From Comamonas sp. GB3 AK4-5 (lineage in GTDB: Bacteria > Pseudomonadota > Gammaproteobacteria > Burkholderiales > Burkholderiaceae_C): DNA of 64,000 bases. Below are positions 52,697 to 61,565 of this stretch, in pieces; within the stretch, counting starts at the first letter, position 1, and the number at the start of each line of letters is the position of its first letter. The position numbers and the translations under genes were made by a program. The notes under the pieces are model-generated. The model searched no databases, was not told the DNA's origin, and was given only the letters and a program-made list of their open reading frames with translations. The stretch covers positions 4,774,001 through 4,838,000 of the forward strand of contig NZ_CP166730.1 in assembly GCF_041320665.1 (NCBI RefSeq). The letters are read 5' to 3'.

Positions 52697-53000
52697 AGTC
52701 AAAAGTCCTCGTTGTCGCATGATGGCCGCACTCGGCCGCACCTTGGAAACCAGGCTTTCAGGATCGGAAGTAGAAGCAATACCCGCCACGCGCGATGTGT
52801 GCGGTGGGGAGCGCTTTGAGCCGACCTTTGAAAACCAGTGGCTCAAAGGTCTTGTTCGACAGCGGCTGTTGCCGTGCCTGACAGGCCGGAAGCACAAGGC
52901 TTCGTATTGACGACCTGCCATCCGTTTGTAGCGCGCAGCAAGTGATGCGCCACAAACGAGGAACTACTCCCCTTTGAATGACTGCCGATTCTACGTAAAA
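52697..53000. other. Divergent region terC/lipid operon
   Basis: 304 bp with the probable promoter of the eight-gene operon. It carries three related arms, CTTTGAGCC (52814), GACCTTTGA (52823) and GGCTCAAAGGTC (52840), described as a finding. No gene is seen. Confidence 0.5.
52814..52851. promoter_or_regulatory. Competing inverted repeats upstream of the lipid operon
   Basis: CTTTGAGCC (52814-52822) pairs perfectly with GGCTCAAAG (52840-52848), and GACCTTTGA (52823-52831) pairs perfectly with TCAAAGGTC (52843-52851). The two pairings exclude each other. As DNA these are three CTTTGA half-sites; as RNA they could switch. Role inferred. Confidence 0.55.
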
Positions 53001-54026
53001 ATGGAACAAACCGCGAGTACGCCGAGATTGACCCACACCAAAACACAACACTCCATCAAAATTGCGGCGACCGGTGTTGCGCTCCCCGAACAACGGGTGA
53101 CCTCTTCTGAGTTGGATACAAGGCTGGGAAAGCCCCGCGGCTATGTGGAAAAACGCTCGGGCATTGCATGGCGCTACCACGCCAGCGACAACGCCAGCCA
53201 GGCCGAACTGGCAGCCGCGGCCCTGCATGACGCGCTGGACCGCCATCACATCCCAGCCGACTCCGTGGACCTGCTGATTTCTGCCTCGGCCATCGCGGTG
53301 CAGGCTCTGCCTTATAGCGCGGTGCACATTCTGAAGGCCGCAGGCCTGCCTGCCGGCACGCCCGGGTTTGATGTCAACAGCAGCTGTGTCAGCTTCATCA
53401 CGGCCATGCAGGTGGCCGCGGGCCTGCTGCAAAGCGGCGCCTATCAACGCATTGCCATTGTCTCGGCCGATATCGCCTCGCGCGGTATCGACTGGCAGCA
53501 CGAGGAGTCGTCCTTTATTTTTGGCGATGGCGCGGCCTGCGCCATCGTGGAGCGGGGCGATGGCAGCAGCGGCATCCTGGGCTGCTTGACCGAGGTCTAC
53601 ACCCAGGGCAGCGACTTCTGTGAAATTCGCGCCGGAGGAACCCGCAAAAACCCCAGGGCAGGCATGCAGGAAAGCGATTTTTTGTTCCACATGCAAGGCA
53701 AGCCCCTGTTCCGCCTGGCGTCCTCTTTGATCGAAGACTATTTCGAGCGCCTGCTGCAATGCAGCGGTCTGACACTGGACGACATCGCCACCGTGGTGCC
53801 CCACCAGGCCAGCCATCTGTCTCTGGAACATATGCGCCAGCGCCTGCATGTCCCCACGGAAAAGCTCATCGACATCTACCGCCACCACGGCAACCAGGTG
53901 GCGGCCTCCATCCCCACGGCACTGCACCACGCCTACAGCGAAGGGCGGGTGCAGCCCGGCAAGCCCCTGATGCTGATTGGCACCGCCGCAGGTTTGACGC
54001 TGTCAGGCATGGTGCTGCTGCCATGA
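53001..54026 (+). CDS. FabH/OleA-like 3-oxoacyl-ACP synthase III family condensing enzyme
   Basis: 341 residues, thiolase fold. The catalytic triad is visible: Cys129 (VNSSCVSF), His268 (VPHQAS) and Asn298 (HHGNQVAAS). It would join an acyl thioester to a second acyl or malonyl unit by Claisen condensation. Length and context (OleD-like reductase next) recall OleA, which joins two fatty acyl-CoA chains, rather than housekeeping FabH, but this is not proven. The ATG at 53001 is used; a TTG at 52974 is also in frame. First gene of the operon; overlaps the next by ATGA. Confidence 0.9.
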   Translation: MEQTASTPRLTHTKTQHSIKIAATGVALPEQRVTSSELDTRLGKPRGYVEKRSGIAWRYHASDNASQAELAAAALHDALDRHHIPADSVDLLISASAIAVQALPYSAVHILKAAGLPAGTPGFDVNSSCVSFITAMQVAAGLLQSGAYQRIAIVSADIASRGIDWQHEESSFIFGDGAACAIVERGDGSSGILGCLTEVYTQGSDFCEIRAGGTRKNPRAGMQESDFLFHMQGKPLFRLASSLIEDYFERLLQCSGLTLDDIATVVPHQASHLSLEHMRQRLHVPTEKLIDIYRHHGNQVAASIPTALHHAYSEGRVQPGKPLMLIGTAAGLTLSGMVLLP

Positions 54027-55027
54027 AGGTGCTGGTCACGGGGGCCACCAGTGGGTTGGGGCGCAATGCAACGGCCTGGCTGTTGGAGCAAGGCTGGCAG
54101 GTGCGCGCGGTCGGTCGCAACCTTGAGGCCGGCGCAGCGCTGCAGCAGCTGGGCGCAGACTTTGTGTCCATGGACCTCGGCCATGCCTCGCCGGAGGATG
54201 GCCTGCGCCTGGTCGCAGGCTGCGATGCCGTCTGGCATTGCGCCGCACGCTCTGCCCCCTGGGGGGCGGCCCATGACTTTCACCGCGACAATGTGCAAGC
54301 CACCCGGATGCTGGCCCAGGCCGCCGGACAGCAGGGCGTGCCCCGCTTTGTGCATATCTCCACGCCTGCGGTGTACTTTGATTTCCAGCACCACCTGATG
54401 CTGCCGGAGAGCTACCGGGCGCGCCGCTTTTCCAGCCATTACGCCCACAGCAAATGGCAGGCTGAGCAAGAAATCACCCAGGCCGTTGCCCAGTACCCCG
54501 GAACGCAATGGAGCATGCTACGCCCGCGCGGCCTGTACGGTCCCCATGACCGCGTCATCCTGCCCCGCCTGCTGCAGCAACTGGACCGCAAACGCGGCAT
54601 ATTGCGCCTGCCACGCGGTGGCCAGGCCATTTGCGATCTGAGCTTTGTGCACAACGTGGTGCACGCCATGCACCTGGCCACCACCCAGGCCAACTTGCCC
54701 AATGGCGCGGTCTTCAACATCAGCGACCAGCAACCTCGCACACTGGCCGAAATGCTGCACCAGCTGCTGCAACAAGAGCTTGGTCTTCACTACCGCATAC
54801 GCGCCCTGCCCTATCCGCTGCTCTATGGGCTGGCGACGCTGCTGGAAGGCCTGGCCAGCGTCACCCACAAGGAGCCGCTGTTGACACGCTACAGCGTAGG
54901 CGCCGTCTGCTTCGATATGACGCTGGACGCCAGCCAGGCCCGCTCGCTGCTGGGCTACCAGCCGCGCTTCACCCAGCAGCAAGGCATTGCACACACAGCG
55001 GCATGGCTGCGGCAACAGGGATTTTGA
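54023..55027 (+). CDS. OleD-like NAD(P)-dependent 3-oxo acid reductase (extended SDR)
   Basis: 334 residues, 3-beta-hydroxysteroid dehydrogenase/epimerase family. The Rossmann motif is GATSGLG (7-13). VWHCAARSAPWG and the N-V pair match OleD/3beta-HSD proteins. The catalytic Tyr140 and Lys144 lie in HYAHSKW, with Ser113 in HISTPAVY. In olefin synthesis OleD reduces the 2-alkyl-3-oxoalkanoate made by OleA. It overlaps the upstream gene by 4 bp (ATGA). Confidence 0.9.
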   Translation: MKVLVTGATSGLGRNATAWLLEQGWQVRAVGRNLEAGAALQQLGADFVSMDLGHASPEDGLRLVAGCDAVWHCAARSAPWGAAHDFHRDNVQATRMLAQAAGQQGVPRFVHISTPAVYFDFQHHLMLPESYRARRFSSHYAHSKWQAEQEITQAVAQYPGTQWSMLRPRGLYGPHDRVILPRLLQQLDRKRGILRLPRGGQAICDLSFVHNVVHAMHLATTQANLPNGAVFNISDQQPRTLAEMLHQLLQQELGLHYRIRALPYPLLYGLATLLEGLASVTHKEPLLTRYSVGAVCFDMTLDASQARSLLGYQPRFTQQQGIAHTAAWLRQQGF

Positions 55028-55028
55028 G

Positions 55029-55835
55029 TTGGCAAAGATCACAAGCTTTGAAGCGGGCTACTGCACCCATATCGCTTGCATGGCACTGAAGGGCGCGGGT
55101 TTCAGGGTCTGCAAATTTCCGGCCCGCACCTGGCTGCTTTCCGTGGGCGACAGGCACTGGCTGTGGGACACCGGCTATGCCGAGTGGTTTGAACGCGCCA
55201 CCCGTCAAGGCATCTTCCACCTTTACCGCCGCATCACCCCCGTGTATTTCGACCCGCGCGAGGCCATGGTGGCCCAGCTGGCGGCGCACGGGCTGCAGCC
55301 GGCCGATCTCCAGGGCATTTTGCTTTCACACCTGCATGGCGACCATATGGCCGGGCTGCGCGACTTTCCCGGCACACCGGTTCTCTGTTCGGAAGAAGGC
55401 TGGAACCGCATCCACCGCCTGGAAGGCCTGGCCGCCCTCCGACAAGCTTTTGTGCCGGCCCTGGTGCCCGAGGACATTGCCGGCCGGCTGCAGTTCTTCG
55501 AGCATTTCCCCGAAACCGCCCTGCCCCCCGAGCTCCAGCCTTTCACCCAGGGCTATGCCCTGCCCCACAGCCAGGGCGACATCGTTTTCGTCCCCTTGCC
55601 CGGCCATGCGGCTGGGCATTTCGGCGCCTTTGTGCGCGGCGAGCAAGGCTGGGTGCTGCTGGCCGGCGACGCGGCCTGGTCGCCCACGGGCTACCAGCAG
55701 CTGCGCGGCCCCTCGGTGCTGGCGAATGTGGTGATGGACCAGCCCCGCGCCTACTACCAAACCCTGGAACGCCTTCACCAGCTGTGGCGCGGCGGCAAGG
55801 TGCAAATCCTGCTCTCGCACGAGGGCGATCTATGA
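55029..55835 (+). CDS. Metallo-beta-lactamase-fold hydrolase
   Basis: 268 residues. The metal motif is LSHLHGDHMAG (His101, His103, Asp105, His106), with later ligands in PLPGHAAGHFG and LLAGDAAWS. The fold covers lactonases, thioesterases and others; in this operon a thioester or lactone hydrolase acting on the lipid intermediate would fit. I place the start at TTG 55029, immediately after the upstream stop, because no ATG fits. AGGG lies about ten bases upstream. The downstream overlap is ATGA. Confidence 0.87.
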   Translation: MAKITSFEAGYCTHIACMALKGAGFRVCKFPARTWLLSVGDRHWLWDTGYAEWFERATRQGIFHLYRRITPVYFDPREAMVAQLAAHGLQPADLQGILLSHLHGDHMAGLRDFPGTPVLCSEEGWNRIHRLEGLAALRQAFVPALVPEDIAGRLQFFEHFPETALPPELQPFTQGYALPHSQGDIVFVPLPGHAAGHFGAFVRGEQGWVLLAGDAAWSPTGYQQLRGPSVLANVVMDQPRAYYQTLERLHQLWRGGKVQILLSHEGDL

Positions 55836-57127
55836 ACCTCCCCTGGACACTGTGGCATTACTGGCGCGCCAAGCGCCTGCGCTTTGCCACGCGCGCCGCA
55901 CTGGAGGCCTGGCAGCAGCGGCAGCTGCAGCGCTTTATCCGCCGCACCCTGGCCCACAGCCCCTGGTTCAGCCGCTTGATCGACCAGCCCTTCACGCGCT
56001 GGCCCGAGATGAACAAGGCGCTGATGATGGCGCATTTCGATGCCATGAACACGGCCGGTCTGCGCAAGGACATGCTGCTGGACTGTGCACTGCGCAGCGA
56101 GCAGGAGCGCGACTTTGTGCCCAAGGTGGGCCGATTCAGCGTGGGCCTGTCTTCCGGCACCTCGGGGCAACGTGGCCTGTTTGTGGTCAGCCCACGTGAG
56201 CAGCAGATCTGGGCCGGCGGCATGCTGGCCAAGATGCTGCCCGACGGACTGATGGCAGGCGAGCGCGTAGCCTTGTTTTTGCGTGCCGACAGCAATCTCT
56301 ATCAGGCCGTCAACAGCCGCTGGCTCAGCCTGGACTTCTACGATTTGTTCAGCCCTTTTGCGGGGCATTTACAGCGTTTGCAACAGCAGGCGCCGACCAT
56401 TATCGTGGCGCCGGCCCAGGTGCTGCGCGCGCTGGCCCTGGAACATGCCGCAGGCCGGCTGGCACTGCCAGGCCTCAAAAAAATGATCTCGGTGGCCGAA
56501 GTACTGGAACCCCAGGACCGCCAGCTGCTGCAGCGCTGCGCCCCACAGGTGGCCGAGGTCTACCAGGCCACCGAAGGTTTTCTCGCCGCCAGCTGCGCCC
56601 ATGGCGCCCTGCATCTCAACGAAGAATTTGTGCACATAGAGCCGCAGTGGCTGGATGGCCAGCGCTTCATCCCCGTCATCACCGATTTCACGCGCCACAC
56701 CCAGCCCATAGTCCGTTACCGGCTGGACGATGTGCTGCACACCACCCACCAGGCTTGTCCCTGCGGTAATCCCGCGCGCGTCATCACGGCCATCGAAGGC
56801 CGCCAGGATGACCAGCTGCTGCTGGCCAATGCACAAGGCCAGCGCCAGACGATTTTTGCCGACCTGCTAAGCCGGGCTCTGGCGCAGCAGCTGCCCCTGG
56901 AAAGCGACTACCGCCTGGAGCAGCGGTCTGCCGACACCCTGCACCTGAGCGCCACCTGCGATGCGCCCACGCTGGAGCGGGTACGCCAGGGCCTGGTCCA
57001 ATGTCTGCAGCAGCAGGGGGTAGACACCGCACAGCTGCACTGGGAAACCCAGGCGGCACAGCCCATTCCCGCGCAGTTCGACCGCAAACGCCGCCGCATC
57101 ATCCGGCGCTGGGAGCCCAGCGCATGA
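55832..57127 (+). CDS. F390-synthetase/PaaK-like adenylate-forming enzyme
   Basis: 431 residues. The ANL family phosphate loop is SVGLSSGTSGQRGLF. VYQATEGFLA corresponds to the A5 motif, and IVRYRLDDV to the A7/A8 region with the conserved Asp. KRRRI near the end may hold the A10 lysine. Such enzymes activate a carboxylate as an acyl-adenylate, then form a thioester, amide or, in OleC, a beta-lactone. The substrate here is probably the long-chain acid of this pathway; this is inference. It overlaps both neighbours by 4 bp. Confidence 0.87.
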   Translation: MNLPWTLWHYWRAKRLRFATRAALEAWQQRQLQRFIRRTLAHSPWFSRLIDQPFTRWPEMNKALMMAHFDAMNTAGLRKDMLLDCALRSEQERDFVPKVGRFSVGLSSGTSGQRGLFVVSPREQQIWAGGMLAKMLPDGLMAGERVALFLRADSNLYQAVNSRWLSLDFYDLFSPFAGHLQRLQQQAPTIIVAPAQVLRALALEHAAGRLALPGLKKMISVAEVLEPQDRQLLQRCAPQVAEVYQATEGFLAASCAHGALHLNEEFVHIEPQWLDGQRFIPVITDFTRHTQPIVRYRLDDVLHTTHQACPCGNPARVITAIEGRQDDQLLLANAQGQRQTIFADLLSRALAQQLPLESDYRLEQRSADTLHLSATCDAPTLERVRQGLVQCLQQQGVDTAQLHWETQAAQPIPAQFDRKRRRIIRRWEPSA

Positions 57128-57738
57128 AGCTGTTATCCCTGCGTCTTTGGCAGATGCTGCTGGGCTGGGGCAGCGTGGGCATCGTCTACCACTTCAGCGA
57201 TCGCTGGCAGGCGCCCGGGCGCCTGATGGCCCCGGGTTGGGTAGACCAGCTCATTCCCTTCTCGCCCCAAGCCATCTGGCTGTATCTCTCGTTCTTTCTG
57301 CTGATCCCCTGCGGCTATCTGCTGACACCGCTGTCCACTCTGCCCTGGCTGCGCCGCGCCATGCAACTGGCCGCGCTGGGTGCAGGCATGGTCTATATGC
57401 TGTGGCCTACCACCATGGTCTACCCCAAGGTGATTGACACCGGCCTCAGCGCCCGGCTGCTGACCCTGCTGACCCAGTTCGATTCAGCGCAAAACTGCCT
57501 GCCCTCTTTGCACATGGCACTTAGTCTGCTGGCCGTGTGGGCCATTGCCAAGGCCCGTCACAAGGGGCTGACGATACTAGCCCTGCTCTGGGCCTTGCTG
57601 ATCGGTTTTTCCATACTGCAGCTGCGCCGCCACCTCTTTGTCGATGTGCTGGCGGGCACGGCGCTGGCCTTGGCTGCCGGGGTGCTGGCACAGGCCATAG
57701 GCCAACGCCGGCTGCGAGCGACAGGAGATATGCCATGA
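57124..57738 (+). CDS. PAP2-superfamily membrane enzyme
   Basis: 204 residues, five or six membrane helices. NCLPSLHMALS gives the first active-site His and LQLRRHLFVDVLAG the second His with its Asp. The usual first phosphatase motif (KxxxxxxRP) is not visible. The H-x3-D pattern is closer to the inositol-phosphorylceramide/sphingomyelin synthase branch (PAP2_3). It may therefore transfer or remove a phospho-headgroup at the membrane. It is tightly coupled (ATGA) to both neighbours. Confidence 0.82.
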   Translation: MKLLSLRLWQMLLGWGSVGIVYHFSDRWQAPGRLMAPGWVDQLIPFSPQAIWLYLSFFLLIPCGYLLTPLSTLPWLRRAMQLAALGAGMVYMLWPTTMVYPKVIDTGLSARLLTLLTQFDSAQNCLPSLHMALSLLAVWAIAKARHKGLTILALLWALLIGFSILQLRRHLFVDVLAGTALALAAGVLAQAIGQRRLRATGDMP

Positions 57739-58886
57739 GTGAATTGGTCATTCCGGTGCTGATGATGGCCGTGCTGGTGCTGGGCGAAGCCGCGGTGCTG
57801 CAGTGGGGCCTGGCACGCAAGGTGTGCTGGCAGGACGTGATCTTCAACCTCAACTCCGGCCACATCATGCTGTGGCTGTTTCGCGGTCTGGAAGTGCTGT
57901 GCTATGGCGCCGTGGCCCAGCACTTCAGCTTGCAGCTGCTGGAGCATGTGGCGCCCGTCTGGCGCTGGCTGTTTGCTTTTCTGGCCTGGGATTTCTGCTT
58001 TTACTGGCTGCATCGCAGCCACCACAACTGGCGCTGGCTGTGGGCCGTGCACAGCGTGCACCACCAGGGCGAACATTTCAATCTGTCGCTGGGGGTGCGC
58101 AACTCCTGGTATTCGTCGCTCACCTCAATCCCTTTCTTCCTCCCACTGGCCCTCATCGGTGTGTCGCTGTCGGAGTTCATCACCGTCTCCCTGATCCACT
58201 ACACCTTGCAGCTGATCAACCACAACGCCCTGGTCGGCTCCCTGGGCTGGCTGGAAAAAATTCTGGTGACCCCCAGCCACCACCGCGTGCACCACCTGCA
58301 TGAACGTGCCTGGAGCAACAGCAACTTCAGCGGCAGCCTGATTCTGTGGGACAAATGCTTTGGCACTTTCCGACAGTCTGCGGACCGCAGCCAGCACGTC
58401 TATGGCATCAAAGGCAGCCAGGCATCGCACAACCCGGGGCTGGAAAGCAATCTGCCCTTTGTGCGCCTGCTGCGCCCCGGCAGCCAGCCCACACCGCGCC
58501 CGCAAGCGCCCGCTTTCCAAAGCCATGCGCTGATGGTCTTCCTCGGCGCTGCCCCGCTGTTTGCCCTGGTGTTGGGCTATATCCAACGCTATGACTACGG
58601 CTGGCAGGCGTTTTCTGCCGCGCAAGCGGCCTTGCTGGTCGTGCTGGCTGTGGGCTCGGTCGCCCTGGGCGCCATCGCGGACGGGCGCCGCTGGGGTCTG
58701 TATGTCTGGTGGTGGACCACCCTGGCCTATGCCCTGATTTTCCCGCTATGGCTGGGATGGCATGCACCGCTGTGGCTGGGCTGCGCTGCGCTTCTGGTGC
58801 TGCATGCCACCTGCGTGCTGGCAGGCTGGGGGCGCAAGCCACTACCTGTCCCGGCACCGGCCCAGGAGGAGCACCTCCATGCCTGA
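57735..58886 (+). CDS. Sterol desaturase/fatty acid hydroxylase-family protein
   Basis: 383 residues. The diiron histidine clusters are HRSHH (93-97), HSVHH (106-110) and SHHRVHH (about 181-187), with an additional His-containing segment LIHYTLQLINHN. Four membrane helices surround them and three more follow in a C-terminal extension, so it is longer than simple fatty acid hydroxylases. It should add a hydroxyl or a double bond to a lipid chain. It overlaps the PAP2 gene by 4 bp and the next gene by 8 bp. Confidence 0.9.
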   Translation: MSELVIPVLMMAVLVLGEAAVLQWGLARKVCWQDVIFNLNSGHIMLWLFRGLEVLCYGAVAQHFSLQLLEHVAPVWRWLFAFLAWDFCFYWLHRSHHNWRWLWAVHSVHHQGEHFNLSLGVRNSWYSSLTSIPFFLPLALIGVSLSEFITVSLIHYTLQLINHNALVGSLGWLEKILVTPSHHRVHHLHERAWSNSNFSGSLILWDKCFGTFRQSADRSQHVYGIKGSQASHNPGLESNLPFVRLLRPGSQPTPRPQAPAFQSHALMVFLGAAPLFALVLGYIQRYDYGWQAFSAAQAALLVVLAVGSVALGAIADGRRWGLYVWWWTTLAYALIFPLWLGWHAPLWLGCAALLVLHATCVLAGWGRKPLPVPAPAQEEHLHA

Positions 58887-59976
58887 TACCCTGCCACCGC
58901 TGCGCTTTGCTTCCGGCCAGGAGCAGGCCTTCCACCGCGCGCTGCACCAGGCCGCCCGCGCCTATTTGCAAGCCAGCGGCGACCATCGCTATGCCAGCCG
59001 CTTCGACCAACTCAAGGCCTTGTTCTTGCTGCTGCTGGCCTGTGGCAGCTACGGGGTGATGCTTGCCAGCAGCCACGATGCCGTGTTTTTTGCCGGCTAT
59101 TTCCTGGCCATTGCCCTCAGCATGCTGCTGAATGTGGTGGTCAACCACGATGCCTCGCACAACGTCTTTTTCCGCAAAGCCTGGCTCAACCGGCTCGCAG
59201 GGCGCGTCGTCACCTTGCCCCTGGGCATAGAGCCAGAGTTCTGGCGACTGCGCCATGTGCGCTTTCACCATCTCTACGCCAATATCGAGCACTACGACCT
59301 CGACACCGAAGAGAACGGCTTTTTCCGGCAAACGCCCTTCCAGCGCAGACATGCTTATATGCGCTACCAGCATCTGTATTGGCCCATGATTGCCGGCCTG
59401 TCGCTGCCGTGGATTGCCTGGGTCTTCGATTGGTCGGACCGCCTGGGCCGCACGCCGCTGCGCCAGGAGCGGGAGCTGGCGTCCACCCAAGGCTGGTGCC
59501 TTTTTCTGCTGAGCAAGCTCGGCCATGTGCTGCTGGTGCTGGCGCTGCCGCTGTGGGCCGCCCACGCCCACGGTGTGGCCACCAGCACCATGCTGCTGGC
59601 CTATGTGCTGAGCCAGATGTTTGCCTCGCTGCTGGTGGTCTATCTGCTGCTGGGCACGCACTGGGCAGAAGCCGATTTTTTCCAGGCCGCTCCCGGTGGG
59701 GTCATGGAGCATGGCTGGTACCGGCACAACTTTGTCACCGCCTGTGATTGGGAGACCTCGCCGCGCTGGCTGAACCAGTTCACCGGTGGCCTGAACTACC
59801 ACCTGACCCACCACCTCTTCCCTGGCTGGCACCACCGCCACTACCCCGCACTGGCGGATAGGGTGGCCCAGCTGGCACACCAGCATGGGATGCCGTACCG
59901 CCGCATCAGCTACCGCGAGCTGCTGGCCTCACAGCGCCGTTTTCTGCGCCGCATGGGGCAGGAGGATGCGGTGTGA
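58879..59976 (+). CDS. Membrane fatty acid desaturase 1
   Basis: 365 residues. The three histidine boxes are HDASHN (90-95), HVRFHH (126-131) and HLTHHLFP near residue 313. Four membrane helices lie between them. It belongs to the acyl-lipid/acyl-CoA desaturase family that needs ferredoxin or cytochrome b5-like donors. AGGAGGAGC upstream of the ATG is a strong Shine-Dalgarno. It is a close paralog of the next gene. Confidence 0.92.
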   Translation: MPDTLPPLRFASGQEQAFHRALHQAARAYLQASGDHRYASRFDQLKALFLLLLACGSYGVMLASSHDAVFFAGYFLAIALSMLLNVVVNHDASHNVFFRKAWLNRLAGRVVTLPLGIEPEFWRLRHVRFHHLYANIEHYDLDTEENGFFRQTPFQRRHAYMRYQHLYWPMIAGLSLPWIAWVFDWSDRLGRTPLRQERELASTQGWCLFLLSKLGHVLLVLALPLWAAHAHGVATSTMLLAYVLSQMFASLLVVYLLLGTHWAEADFFQAAPGGVMEHGWYRHNFVTACDWETSPRWLNQFTGGLNYHLTHHLFPGWHHRHYPALADRVAQLAHQHGMPYRRISYRELLASQRRFLRRMGQEDAV

Positions 59977-61073
59977 GCCCACAGCGCCTGCCCCCTCTGC
60001 CCTTTGGCCACCAGGACCGGGCGCTGTCGCAGGCGCTGCGCCAGGCCTCGCAGGATTGGCTGGTTGAGCACCAGGAACACCGCTTTGCCGACCTGGGCAT
60101 GCTGGCCAAGCTGTGCCTGCTGTGTGTTGTGTGCGGGCTGTGCTATTTGGGGGTGCTCGGCGCCACCAGCGCCAGCGGATTTTTTGCGGTCTATCTGGGC
60201 TTTATCACCAGCGGCATGCTGCTGACGGTGAATGTGGTGCACGACGCATCGCACAGCGCTTTTTTTCGCCGCCCTCGCGCGAACCTGTGGCTCAACCGCC
60301 TCGTCACCCTGCCGCTGGGGCTGGACCCTGAATGCTGGCGGGTGCGCCATGTGCAGCTGCACCATGCCCACGTCAACATCGAAGACTATGACCCGGACAT
60401 CGATGCCAACGGCGTGCTGCGCCAGGCGCCCTGGCACCGCTGGAAGCCCTTTATGCGCTACCAGCCGCTGTACTGGCCCTTGGTGGCCGCACTGACCTTC
60501 CCCTGGTATATCTGGCTGATGGACTGGCTGGACCGCGCCGGCCAAACCAAGGTCAGCGCCCGCCTGCCTGCCGGCTGGCGTGGCTGGGGCTTTTTCCTGC
60601 TGGGCAAGAGCGGGCATTTTCTGCTGGCCCTGTGGCTGCCCTGGCAGCTCGGCCTGGGCCAGTTTTCCTGGTCCTACATCCTGCTGTGCTATTTGCTCAG
60701 CCAGATGCTGTCCTCGCTGTTCTTCGTGATGCTGCTGGTGGGCACCCACTGGGCCACGGCCCGCTTCTTCGAGCGCCCCGCCAGCGGAGGCATGGCACAT
60801 GGCCGCTGCACGCATATCCTGCTCACCACCTTGGACTGGAACACCCGGCCACGCTGGCTGGGCTATTGGCTGGGCGGCGGCAATCTGCATTTGACGCACC
60901 ACCTGTTTCCCCACTGGAGTCACCGCCATTACCCGGCGCTCAGCCACATCATTGCCCGCACCGCGCCGCAGCATGGCCTGCCCTACCAGGCCCTGAGCCT
61001 GTCGGAAGTGCTGCAACTGCAGCAGCGCTTTTTGCGGGCGATGGGAACCGCCCCCAGCCAGCCCAAAAACTGA
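59973..61073 (+). CDS. Membrane fatty acid desaturase 2
   Basis: 366 residues, GTG start overlapping the upstream stop (GTGA). The histidine boxes HDASHS, HVQLHH and HLTHHLFPHW match desaturase 1, and many whole segments are alike, for example RRLP/LPPLPF starts and SHRHYPAL ends. It arose by tandem duplication and diverged, suggesting two different double-bond positions. Last gene of the operon; no terminator seen directly after it. Confidence 0.92.
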   Translation: MSPQRLPPLPFGHQDRALSQALRQASQDWLVEHQEHRFADLGMLAKLCLLCVVCGLCYLGVLGATSASGFFAVYLGFITSGMLLTVNVVHDASHSAFFRRPRANLWLNRLVTLPLGLDPECWRVRHVQLHHAHVNIEDYDPDIDANGVLRQAPWHRWKPFMRYQPLYWPLVAALTFPWYIWLMDWLDRAGQTKVSARLPAGWRGWGFFLLGKSGHFLLALWLPWQLGLGQFSWSYILLCYLLSQMLSSLFFVMLLVGTHWATARFFERPASGGMAHGRCTHILLTTLDWNTRPRWLGYWLGGGNLHLTHHLFPHWSHRHYPALSHIIARTAPQHGLPYQALSLSEVLQLQQRFLRAMGTAPSQPKN

Positions 61074-61163
61074 TGGCGGCCACGCCGCAGGACCGCCTCT
61101 GCGCGTATGGATTTTGTGTGCCGCTGCCACCGCGCCGCAGACTTTGGTCTACGCTTGCGGCCA

Positions 61164-61565
61164 ATGGCATCCATCCACATTTCCGACATCGAAGCCGCCA
61201 TCAACCACTGGCGGCGCCTGCGTCCCAGCCCTGACGGCGTGCGCCTGGCACCCGAGGTACGGGCGCTGGCTCCGGTGTATGCGCGGCTGATCCATGCCGG
61301 CGCACAAGAAGTGAGCCCGGCCAGCCTGTCCACCGCCGCCATGCAAGCCTGGCTGGCCTGGTACGAGACGCAGCCGGACACGCCCTGTATCGCGATTTGC
61401 TCCACCAGCCAGGGCGATGCCCAGTGCAAGGGCTGCGGGCGCAGTTTTGCCGAAGTGCAGCAGTGGCTGGAACTCACTCCCGTGCAAAAACGCGCCGTGT
61501 GGCAGCGCATCCAGGCCGAAGGCCAGGCCCTGCGCTTTACGCGCTATGCAGAAAGAGGGAAGTAA
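61164..61565 (+). CDS. DUF3717-DUF1289 fusion protein
   Basis: 133 residues. The first 70 match DUF3717 (IHISDIEAAINHWRRLRPS), a short domain typical of Burkholderiales. The last 55 match DUF1289 with its zinc-like cysteines (PCIAICSTS...CKGCGRSFAEVQQW). Function unknown. The ATG at 61164 begins the first domain. It lies 90 bp after the desaturase gene, possibly co-transcribed, and is followed by a dispersed repeat. Confidence 0.85.
   Translation: MASIHISDIEAAINHWRRLRPSPDGVRLAPEVRALAPVYARLIHAGAQEVSPASLSTAAMQAWLAWYETQPDTPCIAICSTSQGDAQCKGCGRSFAEVQQWLELTPVQKRAVWQRIQAEGQALRFTRYAERGK

Follow-up and report, generated by a model that had tools for sequence, protein, structure and literature searches.

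Which molecule is made by the eight tightly packed genes (g1–g8) at positions 53001–61073 of a 64,000-nucleotide stretch of the Comamonas sp. GB3 AK4-5 genome (contig NZ_CP166730.1, positions 4,774,001 to 4,838,000; hereafter the window)? These genes form a real and conserved lipid operon, which is apparently unstudied: no study of it was found in open-licence PubMed Central (PMC) papers, and a subscription paper could exist. An initial interpretation made without database searches (the sequence-only reading) had taken the locus for a relative of the OleABCD hydrocarbon pathway. We tentatively favour a different answer, namely that the operon is a horizontally acquired lipid cassette in which a four-gene core (g1–g4) and an exchangeable tail (g5–g8) would together make a ceramide-like lipid by the route proposed below.

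Organization of the operon

All eight genes are encoded on the forward strand, and the seven consecutive junctions consist of an overlap of 4 bp, a gap of 1 bp, and overlaps of 4, 4, 4, 8, and 4 bp, respectively. The tight packing described in the sequence-only reading was thus confirmed, with g2/g3 as the sole junction lacking an overlap. Its grouping of lipid-type enzyme families into one operon was also borne out by Pfam and NCBIfam, which assign g1 to the β-ketoacyl-acyl carrier protein synthase III (KAS III) family, g2 to the extended short-chain dehydrogenases/reductases (SDRs), g3 to the metallo-β-lactamase (MBL) fold, g4 to TIGR02304, g5 to PAP2_3, g6 to FA_hydroxylase, and both g7 and g8 to the FA_desaturases. 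For each of g2–g8, at least 97% of the aligned relatives keep the catalytic motifs. There is no room for an acyl carrier protein (ACP) gene between the eight genes; the sequence-only reading had noted that none is present. A sigma-70 promoter scan gave one site (1.4 in shuffled sequences) and none just upstream of g1, and 14 terminator-like sites were detected (7.6 in shuffles, standard deviation 3.1), the majority of them within genes. A role in anti-phage defence was rejected, since none of the eight genes has a PADLOC match at E <= 0.001.

A conserved core with exchangeable tails

The gene order was compared in 80 named loci, the top 80 among 360 confirmed candidates and hence a sample weighted towards close relatives. 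Genes g1-g2-g3-g4 occur in that order in all 80 loci, and the complete order g1 to g8 is kept in 39, an arrangement far beyond chance. This comparison had been suggested as a check in the sequence-only reading, which knew of no characterised pathway with this exact gene set; no published pathway was found in the open-licence PMC papers, but the set itself is not unique. Genera with relatives include Serratia, Pectobacterium, Pseudomonas, Erwinia, Providencia, Xenorhabdus, Snodgrassella, and Gilliamella.

The genes accompanying the core are of two main types. Tail A, comprising g5, g6, and one or more desaturases, was found in 56 of the 80 loci; one further locus on a short contig (L032) has g5 and g6 only. 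Tail B, which consists of a second SDR, a GT21 glycosyltransferase, and usually a ~190-residue protein and a UGT-like glycosyltransferase, was found in 16 loci, six of which carry both tails. For the ~190-residue protein (L021:13355-13924), neither Pfam nor NCBIfam gave a match at E <= 0.001. Neither tail is present within the stretch examined in eight loci, and a g5-like gene lies upstream in five Xenorhabdus loci. Core and tail genes are co-inherited: in 40 full operons (the 39 loci and the window), correlations of 0.89–0.97 were obtained between the pairwise-identity matrices of the eight proteins.

The core is also present in more distant lineages (34–45% identity in g4), where the neighbours were read from the records' own annotation. 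An ATP-grasp and a GNAT gene adjoin it in Paraburkholderia and Paenibacillus, and Rieske, GNAT-annotated, and ATP-grasp genes adjoin it in Rhizobium and Shinella. The Roseateles core has the same surroundings, except that an unnamed gene stands where the GNAT gene would be, and the GNAT-place genes of Rhizobium, Shinella, and Roseateles match no Pfam family. Another Rhizobium core is adjoined by a gene of DUF3419, a family that includes BtaA-type betaine-lipid enzymes, and those of Ketogulonicigenium and two Paracoccus by a divergent TetR gene and a sulfotransferase gene. In two distant loci, the core is followed by a large protein that matches no Pfam family (L137:7197-8966, 589 residues; L176:8301-9893, 530 residues).

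The condensing enzyme g1

The product of g1 (53001–54026, + strand) is a KAS III-type condensing enzyme with catalytic residues Cys129, His268, and Asn298. Its nearest solved proteins in a PDB sequence search are MxnB (178.8 bits) and CorB (160.6 bits), followed by the best FabH (139.6 bits), Escherichia coli FabH (~120 bits), and OleA (~44 bits). The best NCBIfam model is PRK07204 (KAS III), at 341 bits under a cut-off of 402, and the FabH models score 198–220 bits. The g1 family forms a clade with MxnB/CorB with a support of 94/94 in a first, larger tree and of 99/96 in a tree omitting six long 'other KAS III' rows. A clade of the g1-family core alone, separate from MxnB/CorB, is neither shown nor rejected (approximately unbiased test, p-AU 0.273).

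The assignment to OleA made in the sequence-only reading is not supported. A clade uniting the core with OleA is rejected (p-AU 0.024), and the site of OleA Glu117, Leu103 in g1, carries Leu in 86 of the 93 family members compared and Ile in the other seven; all 93 retain the Cys-His-Asn triad. This set excludes matches that score below 180 bits or are no longer than 290 residues (including the short reading of L026) and repeat fetches. The corresponding residue is Val in MxnB/CorB, Phe in 6/6 FabH, and Glu in 2/2 OleA; according to a passage in PMC4578411, Glu117 of Xanthomonas OleA is the catalytic base, and the residue has the same role in OleA and PpyS. One of the 93 members, from Fusobacterium (L174), is encoded after g4, and a Snodgrassella genome (G448) has two g1-type ketosynthases (L094, L200).

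FabH shares the fold and the triad with g1, but the ten FabH sequences, including the host's own housekeeping enzyme (L001), which is distinct from g1, form their own clade (99/98), and a clade of the core with FabH is rejected at a borderline p-AU of 0.043. The position outside the housekeeping FabH clade, which the sequence-only reading had proposed to examine in a tree with OleA and FabH, is thus upheld, narrowly. A passage in PMC4578411 places MxnB/CorB within the FabH clade, whereas they group with the g1 family in our trees. On the basis of these sequence comparisons, g1 is a member of the clade of MxnB and CorB, themselves enzymes that join two long acyl chains, and is apart from OleA and, narrowly, from FabH. 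Common clade, triad, and hydrophobic residue at the OleA-Glu site notwithstanding, α-pyrone formation from two acyl chains and the two alkyl tunnels of MxnB/CorB are at most predicted for g1. MxnB/CorB belong to modular polyketide assembly lines that have their own carrier proteins and no known counterparts of g2–g8, whereas the operon described here has no polyketide synthase or ACP gene. The lack of an ACP gene had been taken in the sequence-only reading to argue for coenzyme A (CoA) substrates; this does not follow, because MxnB takes carrier-protein substrates (a passage in PMC5724707) and a housekeeping ACP could serve.

The core enzymes g2–g4

Gene g2 (54023–55027, + strand) encodes an extended SDR of the NAD-dependent epimerase family, in which S113, Y140, and K144 are conserved (n = 90). 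Its best NCBIfam model is that of OleD (NF042422), but the score of 156 bits is far under the cut-off of 580, whereas the same model yields ~641 bits on two Ole-type genomes; g2 is thus a distant relative of OleD, not the OleD-like reductase of the sequence-only reading. The suggestion that OleB and OleC had been replaced by a different hydrolase and an adenylating enzyme falls with it.

Gene g3 (55029–55835, + strand, TTG start) encodes a metallo-hydrolase whose predicted fold is that of the N-acyl homoserine lactone (AHL) lactonase-type MBL proteins. The dinuclear metal-ligand set is complete (H101, H103, D105, H106, H193, D214, and H264), and all seven ligands are conserved (n = 89). Only the fold and the metal site are shared with AHL lactonases, since the best NCBIfam lactonase model scores 44.6 bits, far under its cut-off of 360. 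Lactone hydrolysis is a putative activity of g3.

Gene g4 (55832–57127, + strand) encodes a PaaK-like adenylate-forming enzyme with conserved adenylation motifs (n = 92) and is a clear member of TIGR02304 (542 bits, cut-off 251.9). The family name, 'F390 synthetase-related', reflects similarity only, and a literature search of open-licence PMC papers turned up no characterised member. An insertion in a 'Coenzyme F390 synthetase' gene, which may or may not be of the same family as g4, is tabled among Pseudomonas syringae pv. actinidiae mutants in PMC9823363.

The tail enzymes and their likeness to sphingolipid enzymes

Gene g5 (57124–57738, + strand) encodes a PAP2_3 membrane enzyme with conserved PSLH and RH...D motifs (n = 65). 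In a comparison of predicted folds, its closest matches are a sphingomyelin-synthase-related protein (SMSr), inositol phosphorylceramide (IPC) synthase, and Aur1, all three at the distance of remote homology (14–18% identity) and nearly tied with PAP2 phosphatases; g5 is treated as a candidate head-group phosphotransferase. Gene g6 (57735–58886, + strand) encodes a membrane oxygenase of the FA_hydroxylase/sterol desaturase family with conserved histidine clusters (n = 60), and g7 (58879–59976, + strand) and g8 (59973–61073, + strand, GTG start) encode two membrane fatty-acid desaturases with three conserved histidine boxes (n = 98 for each gene, some members being common to both sets). PDB sequence searches with g6 and g7 gave no matches at E <= 1.

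Likeness to sphingolipid enzymes is seen in the nearest folds of g5 and also in the GT21 protein of tail B, for which a PDB sequence search gave ceramide glucosyltransferase as the sole relative. The Pfam families of g6 (PF04116) and g7/g8 (PF00487) also contain the sphingolipid hydroxylases and desaturases, respectively. We do not claim membership in sphingolipid synthesis, because no serine palmitoyltransferase is encoded in the operon, the only part of the genome considered in this respect; the homology of g5 is, moreover, distant.

Horizontal acquisition and distribution

The operon was gained horizontally within the genus. Homology to the two nearest same-genus relatives (L141 and L142) ends at ~52980 and restarts at ~61172, so the gained segment (52980–61172, no strand) consists of the operon with edges of ~21 and ~99 bp. 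No g4 match was found in any of the 36 other same-genus genomes, some of which are incomplete, and in 24 other genomes of the order, eight gave weak partial matches only. The gene downstream of the operon, used as a query, matched in 49 of 53 same-genus genomes (own included), a few matches being weak, and all 29 fetched same-genus sites are empty, i.e. terC lies directly beside the downstream gene with none of g1–g8. Upstream of the terC-family gene, the manganese riboswitch model RF00080 matches over its full length but below threshold (52747–52984, − strand; 23.2 bits, gathering threshold 45). Because the acquired operon starts right at the 5′ edge of this match, its arrival may have displaced the promoter of terC.

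The core is rare and patchy in the class. Only two of 369 class genomes (own included) pass the TIGR02304 cut-off, which is a lower bound because one genome under it (G423, 164 bits) still has g1–g4 in order. A seven-gene version (g1–g6 and one desaturase) is present in E. coli CFT073, with narI on one flank and two tRNA-Tyr genes and purU on the other, and was matched in 672 of 5,426 complete E. coli genomes, CFT073 among them, with at least 80% of it present in 671. Nine of the 80 named loci are likewise flanked by narI and purU on opposite sides, and each of the three possibilities, tail A, tail B, or both, is represented three times among them; a check for the tRNA-Tyr pair covered four of these nine (L021, L040, L041, and L048) and CFT073. 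The operon lies 0.1–1.1 kb after the narJ-narI nitrate-reductase genes in the relatives from E. coli and in 13 Serratia loci, though its hydroxylase and desaturases should need oxygen. Such a need is established for both the fatty-acid hydroxylase and the desaturase families.

Proposed pathway and alternative explanations

We infer the following route. The g1 enzyme would condense two activated acyl chains, probably β-ketoacyl chains, into a two-chain β-keto compound able to lactonise, and g2 would reduce the ketone to a hydroxyl. The lactonase-fold enzyme g3 would then open the lactone or release the acid, and g4 would adenylate the freed carboxylate for ligation to CoA or for direct ligation. 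At the membrane, g6 may hydroxylate and g7/g8 may desaturate the chains, and g5 may transfer a phospho-head group to the hydroxyl, as sphingomyelin and IPC synthases do with ceramide. The outcome would be a two-chain, hydroxyl-bearing, ceramide-like amphiphile built without serine palmitoyltransferase. The operon is not an Ole variant and would work most like an MxnB/CorB-type condensation coupled to sphingolipid-like tailoring. Two megaplasmids weigh against a strict four-gene core: pMPPla107 (Pseudomonas amygdali, L015) has a g4 gene but lacks the remaining seven in its vicinity, and that of Pseudomonas sp. Leaf58 (L206) carries, by annotation, only g3 and g4. With no ketosynthase near either, g3 and g4 may act on their own.

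A specialised fatty-acid route appears unlikely. In this case, g1 would be a FabH-like priming or elongating enzyme acting on malonyl-ACP, g2–g4 would process a β-hydroxy acyl chain, g5 would be a phosphatase, and ordinary phospholipids would receive the product, a hydroxylated and polyunsaturated fatty acid of an unusual kind. The triad common to g1 and FabH, the KAS III and FabH model scores of g1, the hydroxylase and desaturases in the operon, and the near tie of PAP2 phosphatases in the fold match of g5 all agree with it; however, g1 stands apart from all ten FabH, and the route offers no role for the lactonase-fold and adenylating enzymes or for the GT21, DUF3419, and sulfotransferase neighbours seen elsewhere. 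Marginally less probable still is a small secreted lactone or pyrone, serving as a signal or antibiotic, which g1 would form as an α-pyrone or lactone in the manner of MxnB/CorB, g3 would degrade or tune, and the tails would decorate. The clade of g1, the AHL-lactonase fold of g3, and the patchy, mobile distribution fit such a product, but four of the eight enzymes come from membrane lipid-tailoring families, the unit in the window includes no transporter, regulator, or receptor gene (the TetR gene noted above adjoins the core in some Alphaproteobacteria), and g3 is kept between g2 and g4 in all 80 named loci, as expected of a pathway step.

An Ole-type pathway, in which head-to-head condensation and reduction lead to β-lactones, olefins, or long hydrocarbons with g3 and g4 in place of OleB and OleC, is highly improbable. 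Both systems combine a condensing enzyme of KAS III fold with an extended SDR and an adenylate-forming enzyme (OleC in the Ole pathway, g4 here), and OleD is the best NCBIfam model for g2. The operon differs in lacking the catalytic glutamate in 93/93 members, in the separate clade of g1, in the sub-cut-off score of g2, in its lactonase-fold hydrolase, and in the polar head-group enzymes of the alternative tails, which also make the hydrocarbon product entertained in the sequence-only reading less likely. We give almost no credence to the remaining explanation, that the tail modifies lipids of a eukaryotic host, e.g. ceramides, instead of the core product. Tail enzymes do resemble ceramide-modifying enzymes, and several carrier genera live with hosts, but core and tail belong to a single operon of overlapping genes that diverge together, and the core would be left without a purpose.

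Implications

A broader proposal, which we regard as rather doubtful, is that the g1–g4 core defines an uncharacterised class of two-chain ceramide-mimic lipids made via a polyketide-type ketosynthase, that their polar heads (phospho-, glycosyl-, and perhaps sulfo- or amino-acid-derived) are varied by swapping tails at the same chromosomal site, and that a sizeable share of E. coli carries it unnoticed. If the core makes a ceramide-like lipid, a whole lipid class would be missing from what has been described of the cell envelope in well-studied bacteria, and it would be directly revealed by a comparison between strains that carry the operon and strains that lack it. Two-chain condensation of the MxnB/CorB type would then extend from antibiotics to membrane lipids, and the tails swapped at one site would amount to a natural experiment on the function of lipid head groups.

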